Origin: Desulforamulus hydrothermalis Lam5 = DSM 18033
Lineage (GTDB): Bacteria > Bacillota > Desulfotomaculia > Desulfotomaculales > Desulfotomaculaceae
NCBI RefSeq assembly: GCF_000315365.1
Contig: NZ_CAOS01000008.1
Span: 124,001 to 188,000, forward strand
Reading direction: 5' to 3'
DNA length: 64,000 nucleotides
Position 1 is the first letter of the stretch. Every line of letters begins with the position of its first letter. The notes beneath the pieces are model-generated. The model saw nothing but the letters and a program-made list of their open reading frames with translations, was not told where the DNA came from and did not search any database. Made by a program: the position numbers and the translations under genes. Below are positions 1,755 through 51,182 of this stretch, piece after piece.

Positions 1755-2420
1755 TTAGAAAATTCTGCTGGCACCCCGGTACCGGGCACTCCAATAACTG
1801 TCAAGGAGAGAGTCTATTTTAATACCCCGGGAACTGGAAGCATGAATAAATTCGTTATTGCCCAGGTAAATACCCGAATGATTGATGCCCTGGCCGCCGG
1901 TATGAAAGAAAACCAAGTCGCCGGGCCGCAGTTCATCCTTTGCAATGGCTGTGCCTGCCTGATACTGCCCGGCAGCAGTATGCACCAGATCAATGCCAAA
2001 GTTTTTAAACACATACCGCACATAACCGGAGCAATCAAAACCTGCCGGGCTTTCGCCGCCGGCACGATACCTGACACCAATATACTGTTTGGCAAAATCC
2101 AGCACAGCCAGCGCCCTGTCGGCCATACCCCGGGATACGTTGGCGGCATTCGCTGTTACCGGTCTGGCAGCCTGGCCCGACGGTTGGTCAGGCAAGTTTA
2201 ATACTTGACCGATTTGTAAAGCATCACCGGTTAAATTGTTTAATTTTTTAATGTTGTCCACCGTAGTGCCGTTACTCTGTGCAATGGCCCACAGGGTATC
2301 GCCCTGCTTCACCGTCACCTGAGCGCCCTCGGCAGTTCCGCTCCAAACAGCGGCGGTCAGACCAACCGCTGCCGCCAGGACTGCCAGTCTTTTGCTAAAA
2401 GACAACTTCACCTTCCCCAC
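1755..2420 (-). CDS. LysM-NlpC/P60 peptidoglycan endopeptidase
   Basis: A 221-residue secreted wall hydrolase. It has a signal peptide (about 1-33), one LysM peptidoglycan-binding module (about 34-78) and a C-terminal NlpC/P60 cysteine-peptidase domain (about 105-221). The catalytic Cys is in DCSGYV (Cys130) and the His in NHSGIYLG (His181), with a further His193 in FIHA. Such enzymes cut D-Glu/diaminopimelate bonds in stem peptides during wall remodelling. The gene stands alone and its leader is a c-di-AMP riboswitch, matching the known link between c-di-AMP and wall lytic enzymes. Confidence 0.9.
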   Translation of the reverse strand: MGKVKLSFSKRLAVLAAAVGLTAAVWSGTAEGAQVTVKQGDTLWAIAQSNGTTVDNIKKLNNLTGDALQIGQVLNLPDQPSGQAARPVTANAANVSRGMADRALAVLDFAKQYIGVRYRAGGESPAGFDCSGYVRYVFKNFGIDLVHTAAGQYQAGTAIAKDELRPGDLVFFHTGGQGINHSGIYLGNNEFIHASSSRGIKIDSLLDSYWSARYRGASRIF

Positions 2421-2425
2421 TTTCT

Positions 2426-2531
2426 ACGCCTACGGAGTTAGCTGACGGGTTCGGACTGAAAGTTAGCCCGCTGCCTGACGGTAGTTCACCCCAAAAGATC
2501 GGTTCCCCCGTTTTCACAAGAAATTAGGCGT
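2426..2531 (-). promoter_or_regulatory. c-di-AMP (ydaO/yuaA) riboswitch
   Basis: Read on the minus strand, the leader has the ydaO/yuaA signature blocks in order: ACGGGGGAACC, GGGGTGAA, CCGAACCCGTCAGCTAAC and GTAGGCG, closed by a CGCCT/AGGCG outer stem. It lies a few bases before the NlpC/P60 gene. In this family c-di-AMP binding normally turns expression off. Confidence 0.92.
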
Positions 2532-2703
2532 TTTTATTTAACTGGTAATTTAGTCTATTACCAATTTCGCCGAAAGTTTCCATTTTCCTGCTTTTTAAAT
2601 CTTTTAATGCTAAAGCTGCGGATAATTTTCATAATTCACCTTAATTTTGGCAATAATTTTGGTGTTATTGCTTTAATTAAGTTATGTTAGAAGGAGAAGC
2701 CTC

Positions 2704-10089: not shown

Positions 10090-10226
10090 TAAAATTTATC
10101 CCCCTTCATTTTATAAATCAAGCTTAGTATTTCCGTCGTGTTCGATACTATAACTAACATTTTTCCAATTTTTATAGGTGGACGAATTATTGGAAACCCT
10201 GTACAATATTGCATAAGTTTAAAAAA

Positions 10227-10361
10227 GGCCGAATCTCCGGCAGAACCGGAGTACGGGGGACTATCCTTCCCGGGGTGAATCAGCTCTCTTAAAGCAAGGC
10301 AAGCGGACAGAGAGCGGTAGGGTACCCTTCAACCCGAACCCGTCAACTAACCTCGAAGGCC
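10227..10361 (+). promoter_or_regulatory. c-di-AMP (ydaO/yuaA) riboswitch
   Basis: The leader shows the ydaO/yuaA blocks in order: ACGGGGGAC, CGGGGTGAAT, AGGGTACCCTTCAACC, CCGAACCCGTCAACTAAC and CTCGAAGGC, closed by a GGCC/GGCC outer pairing. It ends about 20 bases before the LysM-SleB gene. Confidence 0.95.
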
Positions 10362-10380
10362 AAAAGGAGGGTAATACTAT

Positions 10381-15755: not shown

Positions 15756-15890
15756 AAAATTACCTCCTTTTTGAAAATTTAAGCTCTGCATTACCAGTAA
15801 AACTTAATATAACTTTGCTTTTGTACTTCGACTTGCCGGACCGAAAACCTGCTGCCGCCCACCACAAAAACGCCCCCTTAAAGGGGGGCA

Positions 15891-16157
15891 TCAAACTGTC
15901 GGCAAAGGATGTAAAGCAAAGTAAGGCGGTTTTATGATCCCCTGTCGGCGACTTGTCGAAGCACCGGTCACAGCACTTGATGAGCGAAAGGAGCCCTTGG
16001 GGTGGCGCCCACAGGACGTGGGCGCCAGCCGAACCGGGCCAGGATGGCCCGTTTGAGGCGACCCCAGGGGCCACCGGAGCGAATCATAGTGCTGTCGGTG
16101 CGTAGACCGGAGCCAAAGGGGATCATAAACCACCGGTAATGTTTGTGGACACTCTGA
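15891..16157 (-). repeat. fold-back repeat element, copy 1 (flanked by duplicated terminator hairpins)
   Basis: A 267-bp copy of a dispersed repeat found four times in the window; its reference orientation is minus here. Its best-preserved terminal repeat reads TCAGAGTGTCCACAAAC. Inside the ends are complementary blocks, GGTGGTTTATGATCCCC and GGGGATCATAAAACC, so the whole element can fold back. It lies downstream of gltD between two similar hairpins: CGCCCCCTTTTTAAGGGGGCG (16158-16179, read minus) directly after gltD and GCCCCCCTTTAAGGGGGCG plus TTTTT (15890-15867). Open frames inside are not conserved between copies, so it is treated as non-coding. Confidence 0.88.
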
Positions 16158-22439: not shown

Positions 22440-23774
22440 TTAGAATTTGGTGAGATATTCTTCCAACTCCCAGGGGCTTACCTGCATCCGGTAGCGATCC
22501 CACTCAATGGTTTTGGCTTCCATATATCTTTCAAAAATATGCGGCCCCAGTGCTTCTTTAATTACTTCATCGGCAGCCAGGGCTTTTAAAGCCTCCGCCA
22601 GGTTCTCCGGCAGGTTGCCAATACCCAGGGCCTGGCGCTCTGCCAGGGTCATTTCATAAATGTTCCTGTCACAGGGCGGCGGCGGTACCATCTTCTTCTT
22701 AATACCGTCCAGACCGGCCTTTAAGCAAACGGCCAGCGCCAAATAGGGGTTGCAGGAAGGATCCGGGCTGCGCAATTCAATGCGGGTGGACATCCCCCGT
22801 TTAGCCGGAATACGAATTAGCGGGCTGCGGTTGCGGGATGACCAGGCCACATAGACCGGCGCTTCGTAACCGGAAACCAGACGCTTGTATGAGTTGACAG
22901 TGGGGTTGGTAATGGCCGAAATGGCCTGGATATGGTTCATCAGCCCGGCAATATATTGCATGCTTACTTCACTCATGCCAATGGGAGCATTGGGATCATA
23001 AAAGGCATTCTGGCCATCCATGGTAATCAGGGACTGGTTTAAGTGCATGCCGGAACCGGCCATGCCAAAAACCGGCTTGGGCATAAAGGTGGCATGCAAA
23101 CCGTGGCGCTGGGCAATGGTGCGCACAGCCAGCTTGAAGGTAACAATTTTATCCGCAACATCCAGGGCATCGGAATATTTAAAGTCGATTTCGTGCTGAC
23201 CCGGTGCCACTTCATGGTGGGAAGCCTCTATTTCAAACCCCATCTGTTCCAGGGTTAAGACCATATCCCGGCGGGCGTCTTCCCCCAGGTCGATGGGTGT
23301 CATATCAAAGTAACCGGCCCGGTCATGGGTTTTGGTGGTAGGACGCCCGTCGGCATCCACATGGAATAAGAAAAACTCCGCCTCAGGCCCTACATTCATG
23401 GTGTACCCCATTTCGGCCGCTTCAGCAATGGCCCGGCGCAGGGCATAACGGGGGTCACCGATAAAAGGGGTGCCGTCCGGATTATAAATATCACAAATCA
23501 GGCGGGCCACTGCACCCTCCCGCGGTTTCCAGGGAAATACCACAAAGGTGTTGGGATCCGGCCGCAGGTACATATCCGATTCTTCAATGCGCACAAAACC
23601 CTCAATGGAGGAGCCGTCAAACATCATTTCTCCTTCCAGGGCTTTATCAAGCTGCTCAACGGTGATGGCGACGTTTTTTAATACCCCGAAAATGTCGGTA
23701 AACTGCAAGCGGATAAACTTTACATGTAGGTCCTTACACAATTGCCTAACATCGTCGTTAGTCAGTTTAGCCAC
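22440..23774 (-). CDS. glnA: glutamine synthetase, type I-alpha
   Basis: A 444-residue GSI enzyme that condenses glutamate and ammonium with ATP. All active-site motifs are intact: MFDGSS (ammonium site), [25 protein letters not shown] (metal His), GYEAP (flap Glu) and RIELRSPD (metal Glu). There is no adenylylation tyrosine loop, as expected for the alpha subtype of Firmicutes, which is regulated by feedback inhibition. It starts at GTG 23774 behind AGAAAGGTG. An ANTAR-type leader with terminator precedes it, and gltBD follows. It is very similar to glnA2 next door. Confidence 0.96.
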
Positions 23775-23825
23775 AATAACACACCTTTCTGCTAAAATTT
23801 ACAAGAAGTATTATATCACATAAAC

Positions 23826-23906
23826 AAAAAAACCTACACGCAGGGCATGAAAAAACTTACCCGCTGCAGGCCTCGTTGCCTAATAACCAAGCACACCGTT
23901 GTGCTT
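23826..23906 (-). promoter_or_regulatory. ANTAR-type dual-hairpin leader and terminator, glnA1
   Basis: On the minus strand P1 is AAGCAC-AACGGT-GTGCTT (23906-23889) and P2 is AGGC-AACGAG-GCCT (23881-23868). Both have six-base loops with A at position 1 and G at position 4. The 3' arm of P2 is the start of the terminator stem CCTGCAG...CTGC...AGG, which ends in TTTTTTT (to 23826). P2 and the terminator are therefore mutually exclusive, the known ANTAR antitermination layout. Confidence 0.88.
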
Positions 23907-24020
23907 TATGCAATTGTAATATCAGTATAGCAAATTTTCAACAGAAATCCATACCCTGCCCTCAAGAATTATGTATACTTTTTCAAACAAAAAAGGTAAA
24001 CCTTACCCAGGCGGGTAAGG

Positions 24021-24285
24021 TCAGACGAAGACAAAGGTTGTAAAACAAAGTGAGGTGGTTTTATGGTCCCCTGTCGGCGACCTGTCGAAGCACCGGTCAC
24101 AGCACCTGATGAGCGAAAGGAGCCATTGGGGGCGCCCACAGGATGTGGGCGCCCAGGCGAACCGGGCCAGAAGGGCCCGTTTGAGGCGACCCCAAGGGCC
24201 ACCGTAGCGAATCATAGTGCTGTCGGTGCGTAGACCGGAGCCAAAGGGGATCATAAACCACCGTTAATATTTTCCGGCGGCAAAT
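24021..24285 (-). repeat. fold-back repeat element, copy 2 (one flank decayed)
   Basis: About 265 bp, minus orientation, with the same fold-back blocks and body as copy 1. It lies between glnA2 (stop at 24294) and the glnA1 leader. The distal flank is an intact terminator, ACCTTACCC...GGGTAAGGT plus TTTTTT (24021-23989, read minus). The proximal end near glnA2 is degraded: only a GTAAGAT-like remnant of the expected second hairpin is left, and the TCAGAGTGT terminus is lost. Confidence 0.82.
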
Positions 24286-24293
24286 CTTACTAC

Positions 24294-25628
24294 CTAGTAC
24301 ATGGTCAGGTACTTCTTAATTTCCCATTCGTGAACAGTGGTTCGGAAATCATCCCACTCTTCCATTTTGCCTTCCACAAAGCGGTTTAAGATGTGATCCC
24401 CCAGCACGGATGAGATAACCGGGTTGGCCTGCAGTTCCTTGACGGCCTCGTGCAAGCTGGCCGGCAGACTCACAATGCCCTCCGCCGCCCGCTGGGCCGC
24501 ATCCATATGGTAAATATTGCTTTCGGTAGGAGCCGGAGGGGTAATTTTATTTTTTATACCGTCTAATCCTGCCTTTAAAGCAGCCGCAATGGCCAGGTAG
24601 GGGTTGCAGGCCGGGTCAGGGTTGCGCAGCTCCACCCGGGTGGACATGCCCCGTTTGGCCGGGATACGGATTAAGCTGCTGCGGTTGGCCAATGACCAGG
24701 CCACATAGCAGGGCGCCTCGTAGCCGGGTACCAGCCGCTTGTAGGAGTTTACGCTGGAATTGGTAAGAGCAGCAAAAGCCCGGGCATGCTTAATTAAACC
24801 ACCGATATAGTATTTTGCGGTTTCACTCAGTTGATCCGGTGTGTCGGGATCATAAAAAGCATTCTGGCCATCCAGGGTAAACAATGATTGGTTCATATGC
24901 ATGCCGGAGCCGTTGATGCCGAAGATCGGCTTAGGCATAAAGGTGGCATGCAAACCATGCCGCTGGGCAATGGTACGCACCACAAACTTAAAGGTCATAA
25001 TTTTATCCGCCACATCCAAGGCATCTGAATATTTAAAATCTATCTCGTGCTGGCCGGGTGCTACTTCGTGGTGTGAAGCCTCAATTTCAAAACCCATTTC
25101 TTCTAATGTCAATACCATAAAGCGCCGGGCATTTTCGCCCATGTCAACGGGAGTCATGTCAAAATAACCGGCCTGGTCATGGGTTTGCGTGGTGGGGCGG
25201 CCTTCCTTGTCTACATGAAACAGGAAAAACTCACACTCGGGTCCCACATTCATGGTGTAGCCCATTTCCTTTGCCTCGGCCAGCACTTTTTTCAGGGCAT
25301 AACGGGGGCAGCCTTCAAAGGGGGTGCCGTTAGGGTTGTAGATATCGCAAATCAACCGGGCCACCGCTCCTTCCCGGGGCCGCCAGGGAAATACCACAAA
25401 GGTATTTGGGTCCGGCCGGAGATACATATCCGATTCCTCGATGCGGGTAAAACCGTGAATAGAGGATCCGTCAAACATCAGCTCGCCGTCCAGGGCCTTT
25501 TCCAGTTGTTCAACGGTAATTGCCACGTTTTTTAATACTCCGAAAATATCTGTAAACTGCAAGCGGATAAATTTAACTCCCATCTCCCGGGCCTTTTCCA
25601 GTACTTCTTTTTTGGTAAAAGCGTCCAT
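24294..25628 (-). CDS. glnA: glutamine synthetase, type I-alpha (second copy)
   Basis: A 444-residue GSI enzyme with the full catalytic set: [43 protein letters not shown] and RVELRNPD. It is closely related to glnA1 and reads like a duplicate rather than a divergent isozyme. I start it at ATG 25628 (MDAFTKKEV) behind AAAGGTGGAG. It has its own ANTAR-type leader and follows the gene for an ANTAR regulator, so it may be made both from its own promoter and by read-through. Confidence 0.95.
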
Positions 25629-25655
25629 GTTTCTCCACCTTTCTTGGTTTTTAAT

Positions 25656-25737
25656 AAAAAATAAAACGCCCCATGATGAAGGGACAGTGCTTATCCCTCC
25701 ACCAACAGGCGCCATTGCCGCGGACATCATTGTACCG
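25656..25737 (-). promoter_or_regulatory. ANTAR-type dual-hairpin leader and terminator, glnA2
   Basis: P1 is CGGTAC-AATGAT-GTCCG (25737-25721, one bulged T) and P2 is GGC-AATGGC-GCC (25719-25708). Both loops have A1 and G4. The 3' arm of P2 begins the terminator: CGCC...GAGGGA...TCCCTTC...GGCG, then TTTTATTTTTT. The P2 core is identical to that of the asnB leader. Confidence 0.85.
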
Positions 25738-25769: not shown

Positions 25770-26357
25770 TTATTTAATGCTGTGCGCTAAAATAATCGCT
25801 TCCGCCACAGCCCGCATGGAAATGCGCTTGTTCATACTCTGCCTTTGCATGCGTTTATATGCTTCTTCTTCGCTTAGTTTCATGGTTTGCATCAGAATAC
25901 CCTTGGCTTTTTCCACCAGTTTTCGGGTTTCCAGGGTGTCCCGCAGGTCTTTGAGCTGTTTTTCCAGTTTAACAATTTCCTGATAATTAGCTAATGCTAA
26001 TTCCACTGCCGGCCATAAGGCATGTTCCTCCACAGGTTTTTGGAGTATGCTGAATACCCGGGCCTCCCGCGCTTTCTCGATGGTATCCTGCCGCAAGTAA
26101 TCGGTAGTTAAAATTACCGGCCCCAACTGATCTTCATACATAATACGGGCTACCTCCAGGCCGCTGATACCCTGCAAACAATCCTGAATGATTAACAAAT
26201 CCGGGTGTCGGTTGCGCACCAATTGCAGCGCACCGGGACCGTCAGAAGCATCTCCCACAACAAGGCAGCCCAGTTTTCCTAGCAAGGTTTTGATATGCTT
26301 GCACCACGCCTCATCTGCATCTACGATGACAATTCGTGGATTCGCCACCGGGATCAC
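25770..26357 (-). CDS. ANTAR-domain response regulator, atypical receiver
   Basis: A 195-residue protein with an N-terminal receiver-like domain (about 7-120), a coiled-coil linker and a C-terminal ANTAR RNA-binding domain (about 135-192; RKLVEKAKGILM, AYKRMQRQSM, RAVAEAII). ANTAR proteins bind paired hexaloop hairpins and stop terminators forming. The phosphoacceptor position holds Gln58 (LLIIQD, with Asp one residue later), while the acidic pocket (VDADE) and Lys107 remain, so ordinary phosphorylation is doubtful. Its own leader is an ANTAR-type site, implying autoregulation. No sensor kinase is adjacent. Confidence 0.92.
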   Translation of the reverse strand: MIPVANPRIVIVDADEAWCKHIKTLLGKLGCLVVGDASDGPGALQLVRNRHPDLLIIQDCLQGISGLEVARIMYEDQLGPVILTTDYLRQDTIEKAREARVFSILQKPVEEHALWPAVELALANYQEIVKLEKQLKDLRDTLETRKLVEKAKGILMQTMKLSEEEAYKRMQRQSMNKRISMRAVAEAIILAHSIK

Positions 26358-26368
26358 CTCTCAAACGC

Positions 26369-26434
26369 AAAAAGCCCAGACAGGTACACCACCTGTCCGG
26401 GCAACATTGCCATGATAAGATACATCATTGTATC
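26369..26434 (-). promoter_or_regulatory. ANTAR-type dual-hairpin leader and terminator, autoregulatory
   Basis: P1 is GATAC-AATGAT-GTATC (26434-26419) and P2 is GGC-AATGTT-GCC (26411-26400). Both loops have A1 and G4. The 3' arm of P2 starts the strong terminator GCCCGGACAGGT...ACCTGTCTGGGC plus TTTTT. It ends 12 bases before the ANTAR gene. Confidence 0.9.
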
Positions 26435-29460: not shown

Positions 29461-29523
29461 GTTTCCCCTCCTCAGCGTTAATTAACGGCAAAGTCAAACG
29501 GAGAAGCGTTCCGGCTTAAAAAC

Positions 29524-29583
29524 AAAAAATCCCAACCGGAACTCAGGTCATCGCCTGCGTTCCGGTTGGGACCCCTTTGCCCC
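29524..29583 (-). promoter_or_regulatory. terminator leader with one ANTAR-type hairpin, glnA3
   Basis: The strong terminator CCCAACCGGAAC...GTTCCGGTTGGG plus TTTTTT (29570-29524) is preceded by an overlapping hairpin GGGGC-AAAGGG-GTCCC (29583-29568) whose loop has A1 and G4. No convincing second hairpin is seen further upstream, so this is a partial match. Confidence 0.65.
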
Positions 29584-29673
29584 TGAAATTATTTACTTGA
29601 CATTAATATACTTGTTGATAAATAATTCGTCAATTAAATGGCGGTAGATATATTGTATACATCCCACCAACAA

Positions 29674-30255
29674 TTATGCTTCACCGGATAAAGACAAAAT
29701 AACTTTTCTGGCTATTTTGGCCAGCGAAGTGCTGTGATCCATACTTAATTTCTGCAAGTAGCGATGTGCCGCCTGTTCACTGATATTCTTTTTTTCTGCC
29801 AGCAGCCTTTTAGCCTGATCTACCAGTTTCTTTTCCTCCAGCATTTTCTTGAGCCGGCGGTTTTCCTGTTCAATTTTAACCAGCCGTTTAAATGTGGCCA
29901 GGGCCATTTCCAGCGTTGGTATGAGGTTGGCTTCATCGATGGGCTTAGTTAAATAGCCCAGCACCGAGGAAAATTTAGCTTCTTCGATCAGTTCCCGGTG
30001 ACAGTGGTGGGTTAATAATACCACCGGCGCCAGGTGGTGTTCTTCAATCACCCTGGCCACTTCCAGCCCCTTGCAACCCGGCAGCTTCCCCTCCATAATA
30101 ATGATGTCGGGCTGGCTCTGAAAGGCTGCCTGCAGGGTGCTGCGGCCATCCTCGGTTTCGGCCGCCACCAGGTAACCGTGCTGCTGCAGTAAATCTTTTA
30201 GTTTTTTTCTAAACTCCGGATCCGGGTCTGCCAGCAGGACGCGCCTTCCAAACAA
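29674..30255 (-). CDS. ANTAR-domain regulator with Glu at the phosphorylation site
   Basis: A 193-residue receiver-ANTAR protein. I start it at TTG 30255 because GGAGG lies 8 bases upstream and the length then matches its relatives; the frame is open to 30363 without a better site. The phosphoacceptor position is Glu55 (IIIMEGKLPG), a natural mimic of phospho-Asp, with the acidic pocket ADPDP and Lys (TKP) kept. The ANTAR part (about 130-190) is the most diverged of the three in the window (AKRLLA in place of AKGILM), so its RNA preference may differ. It lies 213 bases upstream of glnA3 and is divergent from asnB. Confidence 0.88.
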   Translation of the reverse strand: MFGRRVLLADPDPEFRKKLKDLLQQHGYLVAAETEDGRSTLQAAFQSQPDIIIMEGKLPGCKGLEVARVIEEHHLAPVVLLTHHCHRELIEEAKFSSVLGYLTKPIDEANLIPTLEMALATFKRLVKIEQENRRLKKMLEEKKLVDQAKRLLAEKKNISEQAAHRYLQKLSMDHSTSLAKIARKVILSLSGEA

Positions 30256-30419
30256 ATCTGATACCTCCAAAACCCTTTGAATACTTATTGTAAAACTATC
30301 CAAAGGGAAAGTCCAGTTCAGTAAGTTTTTTCTAACTTTTCGTACAAATAAAAGGTGTGCCAAAAATTACCGCGTACATTTGGCCAACCGGCTGCGTAGG
30401 ATGGAGTATAACAGCAAAA

Positions 30420-30495
30420 TGTCACTGAGAAGTGACACCAGGGCAATGGCGCCACTTGGTTAAAGAGTTGTCTTTAACGGGTGGCGTTTATTTTT
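30420..30495 (+). promoter_or_regulatory. ANTAR-type dual-hairpin leader and terminator, asnB
   Basis: P1 is TGTCAC-TGAGAA-GTGACA (30420-30437); its loop has G4 but T instead of A at position 1. P2 is GGC-AATGGC-GCC (30442-30453), with A1 and G4. The 3' arm of P2 begins the terminator GCCACTTGGTTAAAGA...TCTTTAACGGGTGGC plus TTTATTTTT. The gene starts 33 bases later. Confidence 0.8.
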
Positions 30496-30528: not shown

Positions 30529-32373
30529 ATGTGCGGTATAGCAGGATGGGCCGGTTCGCCAATTCAACTGCCCCGTGACCGGGCCATTTTAGAAACCATG
30601 ACCGCCGCTTTAGCCAAGCGGGGGCCGGATGCCGAAGGCTATTGGTATGCCCAGCGGGTCGCCCTGGGCCACCGGCGCCTGGCCGTGGTTGACCCGGCCG
30701 GCGGCGCCCAGCCCATGGTACGAACGAGGGGCGATAACACCTTTGTCATTGTCTATAACGGCGAGCTGTATAATACTCCGGAGCTGCGCCGGCAGTTAAT
30801 CTACCGCGGTTACACCTTTAGCGGGCATTCGGATACCGAGGTGTTGCTGGCCTCTTACATGGAGTGGGGACCGGCCTGTGTGGAAAAATTTAACGGTATT
30901 TTTGCTTTTGCCATTTGGCAGGAAGCAGAACAATGCCTGTTCCTGGCCCGGGATCGCCTGGGCGTTAAGCCGTTGTTTTATGCCCGGCGGGGCGACAGCT
31001 TAATCTTTGGCAGTGAGTTAAAGGCTTTGCTGGCCCATCCACTGGTAAAACCCGAGCTGGCTGCCGACGGCCTGGCCGAAATATTTGCCCTGGGCCCTGC
31101 CCGTACACCCGGCCATGGAGTTTTTAAAAACGTCTGCGAACTGCGGCCCGGCCACTATCTGATCTACCAGGACAATCAGATACGCATCGGGCGTTATTGG
31201 AGCCTGGTCAGCCAGCCCCACCCTGATGACCTGTTTACCACCGTTAGTAAAGTACGCTGGCTGCTGGAGGATGCCATCACCCGTCAACTGGTGGCTGACG
31301 TGCCGGTATGCACCCTGTTGTCCGGCGGGTTGGATTCCAGCGCCCTGTCGGCCTTTGCTGCCGCCGCTTATAAAAAGCAAGGCAGCGGCCCCCTGCACAC
31401 TTATTCAGTGGATTATGTTGATAACCGGCGCTACTTTAAGGCCAACCTTTTTCAGCCGGATGACGACGCCCCCTGGATTAAACGCATGTCTGATTATATA
31501 GGTTCGCAACATCATTATGTGCTGCTCCAAACGCCCCAGCTGGTGGAATCGCTGAAACCTGCCATGCTGGCCAGGGATCTGCCGGGTATGGCGGATGTGG
31601 ACGCTTCCCTGTACCTGTTTTGCCGGGCCATAAAAAAGGAGGCCACGGTGGCCCTGTCCGGTGAGTGTGCCGACGAAATATTCGGCGGTTACCCCTGGTT
31701 TCACCGGGAAGCTGATTTGCTGGCCAATACTTTTCCCTGGTCCCAGTCCGTTGAGCGGCGAATTAGTTTGCTCTCCCCCGAGCTGGTACAGTACATTAAA
31801 CCGGCCGCATATATTAACGCCCGCTACCGGGAAACCCTGGCCGAAGTTCCCAAACTGCCGGGCGAAGATAAGATGGAGGCCCGGCGGCGGGAAATGTTTT
31901 ACTTGAACATGGTTTGGTTTATGCAAACCCTGTTGGATCGCAAAGACCGCATGAGTATGGCCTCCGGTCTGGAAGTACGGGTACCCTTTTGTGACCACCG
32001 CCTGGTAGAATACGTTTGGAACATACCCTGGTCAATAAAAAATTTCCACGGCCGGGAAAAAGGTCTTTTGCGCCTGGCCCTGGCAGACCTGCTGCCGGAG
32101 GATGTGCTGGAACGCCGCAAGAGTCCTTATCCGAAAACCCATCACCCGGCTTACCTGGCATCAGTTCGCAGCCTGCTGCAGGATATTTTAAACCAGCCCT
32201 CCTCACCTTTGCTGCAGCTGATTAATGTAGATGCCGTCCGCTCCCTGGTACAGGAGGAAAATGACAATTTCAGCCGGCCCTGGTTCGGCCAGCTGATGAC
32301 CGGCCCGCAGCTGATAGCCTACCTGTACCAGATCAATACCTGGCTGGCAACTTACCGGGTGCAAATATGTTAG
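30529..32373 (+). CDS. asnB: asparagine synthetase (glutamine-hydrolysing)
   Basis: A 614-residue enzyme that makes asparagine from aspartate, ATP and glutamine. Cys2 in MCGIAGW is the glutaminase nucleophile, and YNGELYN and SGHSDTEVL belong to the same domain. The synthetase domain follows, with the PP-loop SGGLDSSAL and the downstream SGECADEIFGGYPW. Length and motifs are typical of the AsnB type. TAAGGAG lies upstream of the ATG. It is divergent from the ANTAR/glnA3 cluster, and its leader carries the same control elements as the glnA genes, so it seems part of the same nitrogen regulon. Confidence 0.95.
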   Translation: MCGIAGWAGSPIQLPRDRAILETMTAALAKRGPDAEGYWYAQRVALGHRRLAVVDPAGGAQPMVRTRGDNTFVIVYNGELYNTPELRRQLIYRGYTFSGHSDTEVLLASYMEWGPACVEKFNGIFAFAIWQEAEQCLFLARDRLGVKPLFYARRGDSLIFGSELKALLAHPLVKPELAADGLAEIFALGPARTPGHGVFKNVCELRPGHYLIYQDNQIRIGRYWSLVSQPHPDDLFTTVSKVRWLLEDAITRQLVADVPVCTLLSGGLDSSALSAFAAAAYKKQGSGPLHTYSVDYVDNRRYFKANLFQPDDDAPWIKRMSDYIGSQHHYVLLQTPQLVESLKPAMLARDLPGMADVDASLYLFCRAIKKEATVALSGECADEIFGGYPWFHREADLLANTFPWSQSVERRISLLSPELVQYIKPAAYINARYRETLAEVPKLPGEDKMEARRREMFYLNMVWFMQTLLDRKDRMSMASGLEVRVPFCDHRLVEYVWNIPWSIKNFHGREKGLLRLALADLLPEDVLERRKSPYPKTHHPAYLASVRSLLQDILNQPSSPLLQLINVDAVRSLVQEENDNFSRPWFGQLMTGPQLIAYLYQINTWLATYRVQIC

Positions 32374-32444
32374 CTCTTAAAGTATTATGTATTTTTTACC
32401 TTTTTCTTTTTCTCCCTGACATTACTTATGTTATTATTATTTTT

Positions 32445-32514
32445 GATACAAGGATGTATTGCAAAATATTGGCACCGGCGCCTGACTCTCAAGGAGGCAG
32501 GCGTTTATTTTTTT
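32445..32514 (+). promoter_or_regulatory. ANTAR-type dual-hairpin leader and terminator, chemoreceptor-like gene
   Basis: P1 is GATAC-AAGGAT-GTATT (32445-32460) and P2 is GGC-ACCGGC-GCC (32471-32482). Both loops have A1 and G4. The 3' arm of P2 overlaps the start of the terminator CGCCTG...CAGGCG plus TTTATTTTTTT. The gene's ribosome site follows within 10 bases, so this is a true leader and not the asnB terminator. Confidence 0.85.
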
Positions 32515-32531
32515 AAGGGAGGAAGATTACA

Positions 32532-33923
32532 GTGGCTGTTTATGAATTTTTAGGTGGTTTTATCCTGGCAGCGGCGGGTGGTGCAATGGCTTTTGGCTGG
32601 CTGCAGAAACGTTATGCGGCGCTAATTCTCAAAATCGAACAGGAATGTTCTCACTGGCAAAAAATTAAACTGCCTGCCGTTTGCCAATTTGCTAATTTGG
32701 ATGTAAAAGGTTTGGCTAACTTAAAGCAGGCAATTTGTGGCTTAACAGAAAAAACCCGTCATCTGGCCCAGGAGATTCAGTTAACATCGCAACAAGTCCG
32801 AGCCGCTGCTGATCAATTGGCTGTTTCGGTTAGCTCAACCGCTGATATTGCTTCAGCTTTTAAACAAATTCAAGATACTGCAGTCACTGTGCAGGCTACC
32901 GGTGAAATTTTAGAAAAAGATTTTATGGCCAGTGAAAAAGCTTTGCAAGAGAACATACAAGCGGTTCGGGCAGTAAACGATGCCATTGCAGAAATTGCCA
33001 ACAATAACCAACAACTGCATTATCACATTAGCACACTAAAGGAATCAGTGGAACAAGTAGAAATAATTTCCCAAAACATCGGCGCCATATCCGGTCAAAC
33101 TAAACTGCTGGCTTTAAACGCTGCTATTGAAGCTGCCCGGGCCGGTGAACACGGGCGGGGATTTGGCGTGGTGGCAGCCGAGATTGGCAAGTTGTCCGAC
33201 CTGACAGCCGGTGCCGTTAAACAAACGGCCGATGTATTGGAACTTATCCGCCAGGATGTGGCCAATGTGGTGGCCAGCATCAACCATAGTTTGGATACTT
33301 CAACATCTGCCACCGATAAGTTGAGCAATATACAACAAGTATTTAGCCAAAGTTTTAATTTCATTTATAAAGTCAACCACACCGCCCGGGAAGCACTGTG
33401 CGATATTAACAGCAGCCTGCAGCAAGTGGCATCAGTCCTAGAATTAAGGGAAAAAGATTTGACTATGGTGGTTCATACCGGCAAACTGATGTCCGATTTA
33501 GCCAATCAATTAGAAAAAACTGCTGCCGGACATCAATTGAACTACGAGATCCGGCAGGCAACAATTTCCCGTATTAATAAAATTAAAAGCCTGCTTGCCG
33601 AAACAGCCGCCCGGACGGATATTATTGCCTTGGATCCTCTCCGGCATCAAAACTTGCTGTGGCAGATTAAAAAGGATAACCCAGACATTGAAGCCATTTG
33701 GTCCAATGATCAAACAGGGATTTTCATCTTCTCGGAACCGGCCGCCGGCCTTGCCAATGCAAAAGTCCGGCAGTGGTGGCAAAAAGCCATGCAAGGTAAT
33801 GTGTTTGTTTCGCCGGTTTATATTTCAGCCATTACCCGGCAACCGTGTTTGACAGTATCCGTACCCATCCTGTCCGGGCAGCAAATCATTGGCGTTTTGG
33901 GGGCGGACGTCAGCTTGTTGTGA
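32532..33923 (+). CDS. methyl-accepting chemotaxis-type protein with C-terminal Cache-like domain
   Basis: A 463-residue protein starting at GTG 32532 behind GGGAGGAAG. It has one N-terminal hydrophobic segment (about 4-24), a helical region, the chemoreceptor signalling hairpin tip ([17 protein letters not shown], about residues 190-210), and a C-terminal domain (about 350-463) resembling a Cache/PAS sensor half ([20 protein letters not shown]). With a single membrane anchor the sensor would be cytoplasmic and placed after the signalling domain, the reverse of a classic MCP. No HAMP is seen. Its ANTAR leader ties expression to nitrogen status. Its stop abuts the stop of the convergent znuA-like gene. 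Confidence 0.82.
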
Positions 33924-42426: not shown

Positions 42427-42692
42427 TCAGACTGTAGACAAACATCACCGGTGGTTTATGATCCCCTTTGGCTCCGGTCTACGCACCGACAGCACTATGA
42501 TTCGCTCCGTTCGCCCTTGGGGTCGCCTCAAACGGGCCCTCCTGGCCCGGTTCGGCCGGCGCCCACGTCCTGTGGGCGCCACCCCAATGGCTCCTTTGCT
42601 CATCAAGTGCTGTTACCGGTGCTTCGACAAGTCGCCGGCAGGGGATCATAATACCACCTCACTTTGTTTTACAACCTTTGTCAACACTCTGA
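42427..42692 (+). repeat. fold-back repeat element, copy 3 (flanked by duplicated terminator hairpins)
   Basis: A 266-bp copy in plus orientation between the MCP gene (stop at 42723) and the HD-GYP gene. The ends are TCAGACTGTAGACAAAC and TTTGTCAACACTCTGA, near-perfect inverted repeats. It is flanked by GCTGCACCAATAGTGCAGC (42408-42426) and GCTGCACCAAGAGTGCAGC (42693-42711), which differ at one base in the loop. Read with the genes (minus), the order is MCP stop, hairpin, element, hairpin, TTTTTT. Confidence 0.9.
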
Positions 42693-48942: not shown

Positions 48943-50316
48943 TTAAACCGTTTTAATCGCAGAACTGCTGACCCCAGGGGCAGCTTTTATATCTCTGGTC
49001 AGGGATCCCCCGAAGGTATCCGCATAAGCGTAAGCATTTTCACCATGCACACTGACATCAAGACCTATTGCTTCATCATCGGCGGAAACCCGTAAATCGG
49101 TGAACAAGCCGATTAGTTTAAGAATAAGGAAGGTGGCCAGGCCGGCAAACACTACGGTGGCTCCTACCCCGATTAATTGTGTCACCAGTTGAGCGGCATG
49201 GCCGTAAAACAAGCCGTCTGCCCCCGCCTGGTTAACCGTCTTGCTGGCAAACAGGCCGGTGGCAACAGCCCCCCAGGTTCCGCCTACCCCGTGAATGCCA
49301 AAGGCATCCAGGGCATCGTCATAACCCAGCTTGCTTTTGACAACCGCCACCGCAAAGTAACACAGCGGGCCAACCACCAGGCCAATCAGAATAGCAGGCA
49401 ACGGAGCCACAAAACCGGCGGCCGGGGTAATGGCCACCAAACCTGCCACAGCGCCGGAAACACATCCCAGCAGGGTTGGCTTGCCATGATGGGCCCATTC
49501 TGCCAGCACCCAGGAAACCCCGCCGGCAGCAGCAGCCAGGTGGGTCACCGCAAAGGCACTGGCCGCCAGGCCGTTGGCCGCCAGGGCACTGCCGGCATTA
49601 AAACCAAACCAACCAAACCAGAGCAGTGCCGCCCCCAGCACGGTCATGGGCAGATTGTGCGGCACCATGGGTTCGCTGCCATAGCCGCGCCGCTGACCGA
49701 TGACCAGCGCCGCCACCAAACCGGCCACGCCGGAACTGATGTGTACTACCGTACCTCCGGCAAAATCCAGCGCTCCCAGCTGCATCAGCCAGCCGCCGCC
49801 CCATACCCAGTGACACAGGGGAGAGTAGACAAGGGAGGCCCACAATACAATAAAGGCAAGGAAAGCCGGAAAACGCATGCGTTCAGCCACTGACCCGGTT
49901 ATAATGGCAACCGTGATAAGAGCAAACATTAATTGAAAAGCCATAAAGATAAAGTGCGGAATGGTGCCGCTGGGCTCCTGCCCAACTCCCTGCAGTCCCA
50001 GGTAATCCAGGCCCCCGATAACCCGGCCGACATCCGGACCAAAGGCTAAGGTATAGCCGTACAAAGCCCAAATAATGCTGACCACGCAAATTACGATAAA
50101 GCTGAGCATGATGGTGCTGAGTACATTTTTCTTTCTTACCATGCCGCCGTAAAACAGCGCCAGGCCAGGGGTCATAATCATTACCAGCGCAGCGCAAATA
50201 ATGATAAAAGTAGTGTCACCGGTATCAACAACCGGCTTACCGGCGGCCCAGGCGGTGCCCGGTATAGACAGCCAGGCTAAGAGCGGCAGGAGAACTGTTT
50301 TTATCCTGTTTAGCAT
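48943..50316 (-). CDS. amtB: ammonium transporter
   Basis: A 457-residue Amt/Rh channel with eleven membrane helices after a cleavable N-terminal signal (ending AWA). Signature motifs are MTPGLALFYGGMV, the conserved Trp/Phe gate regions, GGTVVHISSGVAG with the first pore His, and AFGIHGVGGTWGA with the second. The cytoplasmic tail (about 415-457) is available for P-II binding. It forms an operon with glnK. The leader carries ANTAR hairpins and a terminator, plus a second long hairpin close to the start codon. Confidence 0.96.
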   Translation of the reverse strand: MLNRIKTVLLPLLAWLSIPGTAWAAGKPVVDTGDTTFIIICAALVMIMTPGLALFYGGMVRKKNVLSTIMLSFIVICVVSIIWALYGYTLAFGPDVGRVIGGLDYLGLQGVGQEPSGTIPHFIFMAFQLMFALITVAIITGSVAERMRFPAFLAFIVLWASLVYSPLCHWVWGGGWLMQLGALDFAGGTVVHISSGVAGLVAALVIGQRRGYGSEPMVPHNLPMTVLGAALLWFGWFGFNAGSALAANGLAASAFAVTHLAAAAGGVSWVLAEWAHHGKPTLLGCVSGAVAGLVAITPAAGFVAPLPAILIGLVVGPLCYFAVAVVKSKLGYDDALDAFGIHGVGGTWGAVATGLFASKTVNQAGADGLFYGHAAQLVTQLIGVGATVVFAGLATFLILKLIGLFTDLRVSADDEAIGLDVSVHGENAYAYADTFGGSLTRDIKAAPGVSSSAIKTV

Positions 50317-50451: not shown

Positions 50452-50526
50452 AAAACAATAAGGCTCAACAACCTAAAGCGGTTATTGAGCCTTCCTTGGC
50501 TTGTATGGGGTACATCTTTGTTCCCC
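50452..50526 (-). promoter_or_regulatory. ANTAR-type dual-hairpin leader and terminator, amtB
   Basis: P1 is GGGGaAC-AAAGAT-GTaCCCC (50526-50507) and P2 is AGCC-AAGGAA-GGCT (50501-50488). Both loops have A1 and G4. GGCT of P2 is the first part of the terminator arm GGCTCAATAACC, which pairs with GGTTGTTGAGCC and is followed by TTATTGTTTT. P2 and the terminator therefore exclude each other. This is the cleanest example in the window. Confidence 0.92.
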
Positions 50527-50606: not shown

Positions 50607-51182
50607 TTACAGTTCGTAACCGGTAATAATAGCCTCGGCTACCGCTTTCATGGTGGTTCTTTTTTTCATGGCGGTTTGCTGGATTACTTTAAAGGCCTGT
50701 TCTTCACTAAAACCCTTTTGCTTCATAAGTATGCCTTTGGCCCGTTCCACAATTTTGCGGGCCTGCAGGGTGGCTTGCAGTTTATGCAGCTGCTGCTGCA
50801 ACTGAGTATATTTTTGATGGGTGGCCACCGCCGCCTCCACTGCCGCATATAACTGATCTTCCAAATAAGGACGCATCAAAAAGGCCGCCGCTACCTCCCG
50901 GGCCCGTTCCACCAGCCCTTTATTTCCCTGGGATACCATCAGTACCGCCGGCGCCAGATTTTCTTCCGTTAATATCTTGGCCACCTGCATACCGTCCAAT
51001 ACCGGCAGCCGGTCGTCCAGCAGCACTGCATCGGGTGCCGTGGCACGGGCCACTTTCAGGGCATCCATACCGCCGGCAGCTTCCCCCACCACCCGGTAGC
51101 CCAGGCGGGGCAGCATGTAGCGCAGCTGTTCCAATTCTTTTTTGTTTCCGCTGGCAATGATAATCCGCTTCTGCATAATCAC
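50607..51182 (-). CDS. ANTAR-domain regulator, receiver lacking the acidic pocket
   Basis: A 191-residue receiver-ANTAR protein. It keeps an Asp at the phosphorylation position (Asp56, VLLDDRLP), but the Mg-binding acidic pair is replaced by Ser-Gly-Asn (IIASGNKK, residues 10-13) and the signalling Lys by Arg (FLMRP), so it probably does not take part in normal phosphotransfer. The ANTAR domain is canonical (RKIVERAKGILM, QQTAMKKR, KAVAEAII) and closest to that of the regulator at 25770. Its start overlaps the alr stop by four bases, so it is translated with alr. It is the gene just upstream of amtB. Confidence 0.92.
   Translation of the reverse strand: MIMQKRIIIASGNKKELEQLRYMLPRLGYRVVGEAAGGMDALKVARATAPDAVLLDDRLPVLDGMQVAKILTEENLAPAVLMVSQGNKGLVERAREVAAAFLMRPYLEDQLYAAVEAAVATHQKYTQLQQQLHKLQATLQARKIVERAKGILMKQKGFSEEQAFKVIQQTAMKKRTTMKAVAEAIITGYEL

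Follow-up and report, generated by a model that had tools for sequence, protein, structure and literature searches.

A predicted ANTAR antitermination leader precedes a chemoreceptor-type gene with a cytosolic Cache domain in the nitrogen cluster of Desulforamulus hydrothermalis

The stretch of Desulforamulus hydrothermalis DNA analyzed here (64,000 nt in its full length, hereafter the window) possesses a nitrogen-assimilation cluster comprising gltB, three glnA-type genes, an FMN glutamate-synthase-like gene, asnB, amtB and three ANTAR response regulators, the latter being the only ANTAR genes found in a search of the whole genome. Directly 3′ of asnB, on the same strand, lies an open reading frame for a chemoreceptor-type protein, hereafter the receptor (Table 1). 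The receptor is likely a chemoreceptor that is synthesized via ANTAR antitermination when nitrogen is short and reports an internal metabolite to CheA.

Table 1. Features of the receptor locus, and ANTAR-type leaders and ANTAR genes of the window
Feature	Position	Strand	Basis
Candidate extended −10 promoter element TGTTATTAT	32429–32437	+	Sequence
P1 hairpin GATAC-AAGGAT-GTATT, hexaloop AAGGAT (A1, G4)	32445–32460	+	Covariation support
P2 hairpin GGC-ACCGGC-GCC, hexaloop ACCGGC (A1, G4), overlaps terminator	32471–32482	+	Covariation support
Intrinsic terminator, 12-bp stem (32477–32505) and T-run to 32514	32477–32514	+	
Shine-Dalgarno GGGAGG	32517–32522	+	Sequence
MCP-like protein, 463 aa: one TM anchor (~6–24), MCP rod (59–332), C-terminal Cache domain (~349–463)	32532–33923	+	
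ANTAR-type leader of asnB (30529–32373)	30421–30454	+	R1 model and intergenic reading
ANTAR-type leader of glnA1 (22440–23774)	23868–23905	−	R1 model and intergenic reading
ANTAR-type leader of glnA2	25707–25736	−	R1 model
ANTAR-type leader of ANTAR gene 1 (25770–26357)	26399–26434	−	R1 model and intergenic reading
ANTAR-type leader of amtB (48943–50316)	50488–50524	−	R1 model and intergenic reading
ANTAR response-regulator gene 1	25770–26357	−	
ANTAR response-regulator gene 2	29674–30363	−	
ANTAR response-regulator gene 3	50607–51182	−	

The receptor leader consists of a 6-bp P1 hairpin, a 9-nt linker and the P2 hairpin, whose stem has only 3 bp. The terminator stem takes its 5′ part from the P2 loop and 3′ arm, which makes P2 and the terminator mutually exclusive; with each folded alone, the terminator is the more stable (−13.7 kcal/mol versus −5.8 kcal/mol for the P1+P2 segment). 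The T-run ends 2 nt before the Shine-Dalgarno sequence, and the GTG start codon at 32532 follows the terminator by about 18 nt. This agrees with a preliminary description of the same DNA, which had claimed a pair of A1/G4 hexaloops and an overlapping terminator less than 20 bases from the GTG; the 18 nt also leave no room for a separate promoter downstream of the terminator. On the other side of the leader, the 3′ end of the candidate promoter element stops 7 nt short of P1, and transcription would be expected to start at the foot of this hairpin. The same position reads TGGTATTAT in close orthologues and TTGACA-18-TATAAT in others.

The architecture resembles the ANTAR dual-hexaloop leaders of EutV/eutP and of Desulfotomaculum in its two A1/G4 hairpins, the overlap of P2 with the terminator, the nearby ANTAR genes and the nitrogen targets. 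Among the targets of EutV, eutP has such an overlapping P2, and the protein reads the G4 of each hexaloop. Unlike these earlier leaders, the receptor leader has a chemoreceptor behind its terminator as the target.

A strict pattern scan of the window returned the receptor leader as the sole strong site, plus one weak match, while ten shuffled windows gave 4 matches in total. The scan overlooked the other nitrogen leaders, whose terminators have long loops or bulges; these were identified by reading the intergenic sequence and then confirmed with a covariance model, R1. The Rfam library places no family at the receptor leader at gathering thresholds, and a permissive scan produced chance matches only. 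R1 was trained on ten leaders of glnA, amtB, asnB and ANTAR genes, with no receptor leader included, and finds in the window the leaders of ANTAR gene 1, asnB, amtB, glnA1, glnA2 and the receptor, the last scoring 23.4 bits with a window-wide E of 0.0021. Across the 2.69-Mb genome it yields these same six sites and no others at E ≤ 1, all within the nitrogen cluster, the receptor leader being among the weaker of them (rank 5 of 6, genome-wide E = 0.086). Twelve other genomes contain 3 to 9 sites each, and in five of these genomes (G001, G004, G024, G028 and G036) the receptor leader is recovered at E ≤ 1. The earlier assignment of this leader to the same type of switch as those of amtB and glnA is thus upheld by a model that had never seen a receptor leader.

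Two of the glnA-type genes show further peculiarities. In the leader of the third glnA-like gene (29461–29673, minus strand), a strong terminator overlaps the one A1/G4 hairpin, GGGGC-AAAGGG-GTCCC, and no clear partner hairpin is seen in the intergenic sequence. For glnA2 (24294–25730, minus strand), the ORF caller puts the start at 25730; judging from the position of its ANTAR leader and from the alignment to glnA1, the true start is likely the ATG at 25628.

The receptor's Cache domain is present in 29 of the 113 genomes of the order. Orthologues were found by protein search within the order, and the family is also represented in Desulfotomaculales, Moorella, Paenibacillus, Cohnella, Alicyclobacillus and other taxa. 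Of 39 non-Bacilli loci, 9 have the full set of P1, P2 and terminator upstream, where shuffling predicts 0.0, and 19 have at least P2 with the terminator, where it predicts 1.6. An earlier, stricter count based on a double hairpin and a TTTT run (6/37) was blind to broken T-runs and was replaced by this terminator search. Several orthologues, such as L083 and L044, possess no leader, many others have only P2 and the terminator, and the combined hairpin and terminator search found the leader in 0 of 45 Bacilli upstream regions. Orthologues outside Bacilli thus keep the hairpins, and neither this comparison nor the look for a second promoter refuted the reading given in the preliminary description. 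In the receptor family we also noted the protein of Desulforamulus aquiferis (L089, the same locus as L010 and L045), which is split into two frames by either pseudogenization or a sequencing error.

Compensatory changes accompany this conservation. Across 13 orthologue leaders, P1 arms occur as ATAC/GTAT, TATC/GATA and CATC/GATG, and P2 arms as GGC/GCC, AGC/GCT and GAC/GTC, and the G4 is invariant in both loops. Paired cells make up 98.9% of the alignment and 18 cells carry double changes, although the 13 leaders were chosen by eye, a selection that favours paired cells. The covariation score is 0.63, compared with at most 0.24 when the partners are slid. Since MAFFT misaligned P2 when the linkers were included, the linkers were removed before pair counting.

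The protein itself combines an MCP signalling domain (PF00015, 83 bits, residues 150–300) with a partial Pfam Cache match at 344–462, and structure prediction yields a long antiparallel rod (59–203 and 205–332) with the Cache domain after it. The tip residues L193, N196, A197, I199, E200, G205, G208 and F211 are invariant in 50 family members. Hydropathy assigns a single N-terminal TM segment to this protein. Several relatives have two such segments, and most Paenibacillaceae proteins have none; because of this, and as no TM segment separates the anchor from the sensor, the Cache domain is placed in the cytosol. The chemoreceptor signalling domain named in the preliminary description is thus confirmed by the MCP domain and its intact tip, but the C-terminal cytosolic Cache domain sets the protein apart from an ordinary receptor.

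Predicted alone, the Cache domain reaches a pLDDT of 95.8. Its fold matches KinD, DctB, PctB with Gln, CtaA and PctA with Z scores of 14–17 and is equally near to carboxylate sensors (KinD, DctB, CitA) and amino-acid sensors, while the nearest solved relatives by sequence are the amino-acid chemoreceptors Tlp3, PctA and CtaA (6pxy) and the broad-ligand receptor McpA (7w0w). The complete dCache_1AA motif comprises Y121, R126, W128, Y129, Y144 and D173 in PctA numbering; contacts to the ligand carboxylate come from the first Tyr, the Arg and the Trp, those to the amino group from the second Tyr and the Asp. Arg413, Trp415, Tyr430 and Asp459 of the receptor correspond to amino-acid contacts of PctA and are invariant in 50 members, and the W416 position is aromatic; the equivalent of Y121 is missing, the position being Ala408. 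The domain therefore shares with dCache_1AA receptors (PctA, CtaA, Tlp3, Mlp24) the Cache fold, the R-x-W-aromatic element and two further ligand-motif residues, Tyr and Asp. In contrast to their two extracytoplasmic modules, it is a single C-terminal cytosolic module of 115 aa, and this, together with the absent motif residue, sets it outside dCache_1AA although its build is that of an amino-acid sensor. Its ligand is probably an amino acid or a related metabolite reporting internal nitrogen status.

Bacilli members of the family appear to use another regulator. A perfect GlnR/TnrA box (TGTNAN7TNACA) is located within 200 nt upstream in 11 of 47 Bacilli copies, with 0.1 expected from shuffling, and a box with at most one mismatch in 25 of 47, with 3.4 expected; no perfect box occurs upstream of the non-Bacilli copies. 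Measured against the other genes of the same Bacilli loci, the enrichment of perfect boxes is smaller (8/42 versus 15/237, P = 0.01), and that of one-mismatch boxes is 22/42 versus 39/237 (P = 2 × 10⁻⁶). As a positive control, amtB carries GlnR boxes in 18 of 23 cases; it also lies convergently within about 1.6 kb of the receptor gene in 25 of 46 Bacilli loci. The absence of the leader combined with the enrichment of GlnR/TnrA boxes points to conserved nitrogen control of the receptor family by a different regulator. We infer that one receptor family may have been placed under nitrogen control independently by two unrelated mechanisms.

In D. hydrothermalis, a promoter just 5′ of P1 would yield a short RNA normally ended at the terminator. 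At low nitrogen, an ANTAR regulator of the same cluster would bind the P1 and P2 hexaloops, and the formation of P2 would disrupt the terminator, so that antitermination in vivo would bring about transcription of the receptor together with glnA, asnB and amtB. Nitrogen shortage would thus be the inducing direction. The receptor would be membrane-anchored, with the conserved tip of its rod inserted into a CheA/CheW array and its C-terminal sensor inside the cell, and the metabolite signal of the Cache domain would bias swimming towards better nitrogen supply. The genome contains three CheW domains, one of them in a 702-aa frame consistent with CheA. We infer a link of the receptor to motility.

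The regulators themselves leave space for another role of the receptor. Judged by eye against the usual receiver motif, the phospho-Asp is replaced by Gln in ANTAR 1 and by Glu in ANTAR 2, and ANTAR 3 lacks the acidic pair, so the input of the regulon is probably other than simple phosphorylation. A non-kinase input being plausible, the hairpins and terminator could be ANTAR-controlled while the receptor, like AmiC or NasS, senses a metabolite and feeds back on the ANTAR proteins in a non-chemotactic loop. We regard this as unlikely, even though an ANTAR–glnA pair is located 3′ of the receptor gene in G036, since the residues contacting CheA and CheW at the tip are invariant and the Bacilli copies with GlnR boxes lack an ANTAR leader. 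CheW is found in 28 of 29 Cache-domain carriers of the order versus 94 of 113 genomes (P = 0.02, with relatedness ignored); ANTAR is found in 29 of 29 carriers versus 99 of 113 genomes (P = 0.01, likewise ignoring relatedness). A CheW domain was not found in one carrier, G042, nor in the MAG of L130, which is outside the order set. These two cases would fit the feedback loop, but we discount them as a sign of a non-chemotactic role because the receptor copies are on contigs of 3.9 and 8.4 kb that may be mis-binned.

A switch acting on translation, with the ribosome site masked or exposed through ANTAR binding or through the terminator stem, is suggested by the tight spacing between the T-run and the Shine-Dalgarno sequence, and Ramesh 2012 (PMC3369931) proposed translational control for an MCP gene. 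We find this quite improbable for the receptor, because P2 of its leader, like that of eutP and of many orthologues, overlaps a complete terminator that includes a T-run. Another reading, already disfavoured and in our view very improbable, takes the terminator as that of asnB, which ends at 32373 on the same strand, about 70 nt 5′ of P1; the hexaloop hairpins would then be fortuitous and the receptor merely downstream of a nitrogen cluster. However, orthologues with other upstream genes (L040, L086, L087 and L111) keep the leader, which is therefore not a by-product of the neighbourhood. The covariation of the hairpins in orthologues, the promoter-like element between asnB and P1, and the recovery of the site by an independently built model also speak against a terminator belonging to asnB.

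AerC of Azospirillum links chemotaxis and nitrogen metabolism, but the receptor differs from the AerC/Che system in protein family and in mode of control, and we know of no RNA leader for that system. In the same genus, CheA1 and CheA4 tie chemotaxis to nitrogen metabolism (PMC8561660). Nitrogen ANTAR regulons have been predicted in Desulfotomaculum, and a supplementary figure of the same work places a putative ANTAR element across an MCP gene start (Ramesh 2012, PMC3369931); the element there overlaps the ribosome site, and the case was not pursued further. In a survey of Bacilli from 2012, the putative GlnR targets include mcp genes of Geobacillus, Anoxybacillus, L. seeligeri and Paenibacillus JDR-2 (PMC3412718, Table 4). 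These mcp genes resemble the Bacilli members with GlnR boxes in being chemoreceptor-type genes under predicted nitrogen control; the main text of the survey describes neither the protein family nor the sensor. No mention of chemotaxis is made in a study of GlnR binding in P. polymyxa. A non-exhaustive literature search found no paper uniting the ANTAR–MCP and GlnR–mcp links in one receptor family or describing its sensor. The preliminary claim of an undescribed output accordingly needs narrowing: both links had been mentioned in passing (PMC3369931, PMC3412718), while the shared family was not found in this search. The shared receptor family, the regulator swap and the cytosolic Cache domain appear to be new.

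Beyond the antitermination of a single chemoreceptor gene, we tentatively hypothesize, without regarding it as the probable outcome, that an internal nitrogen metabolite (an amino acid, e.g., glutamine) is the signal which a receptor family found widely in Firmicutes reads with its cytosolic Cache domain to steer swimming, the family having been wired separately into ANTAR antitermination in Clostridia-type lineages and into GlnR/TnrA control in Bacilli. If true, a chemotaxis receptor would belong to the core regulon of nitrogen starvation throughout Firmicutes, joined to it by two unrelated mechanisms, which would strongly indicate that the function of the receptor is itself selected. To our knowledge, nearly all known Cache domains are outside the cell, and the receptor points to one used inside it. 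It would make it possible to test directly if bacteria navigate by their internal nitrogen status, and its gene could serve as a simple reporter for ANTAR nitrogen regulons.

The window contains other structured RNAs. Rfam matches to TwoAYGGAY (RF01731) at 15954 and 42476 were considered as nitrogen leaders because of their AYGGAY loops, and were rejected, as they sit in copies of a dispersed structured repeat (15841–16080, plus strand; 42504–42692, minus strand). At least 40 copies of this repeat, about 190 nt long with 89–95% identity, are present in the genome, and RF01731, which is listed as cis-regulatory, may be a dispersed, perhaps mobile, element here. A stretch related to the repeat seemingly lies 5′ of glnA1 (23775–24293). 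Two c-di-AMP riboswitches are located at 2411–2540 (minus strand) and 10217–10376 (plus strand), the second just 5′ of a LysM/cell-wall hydrolase gene.
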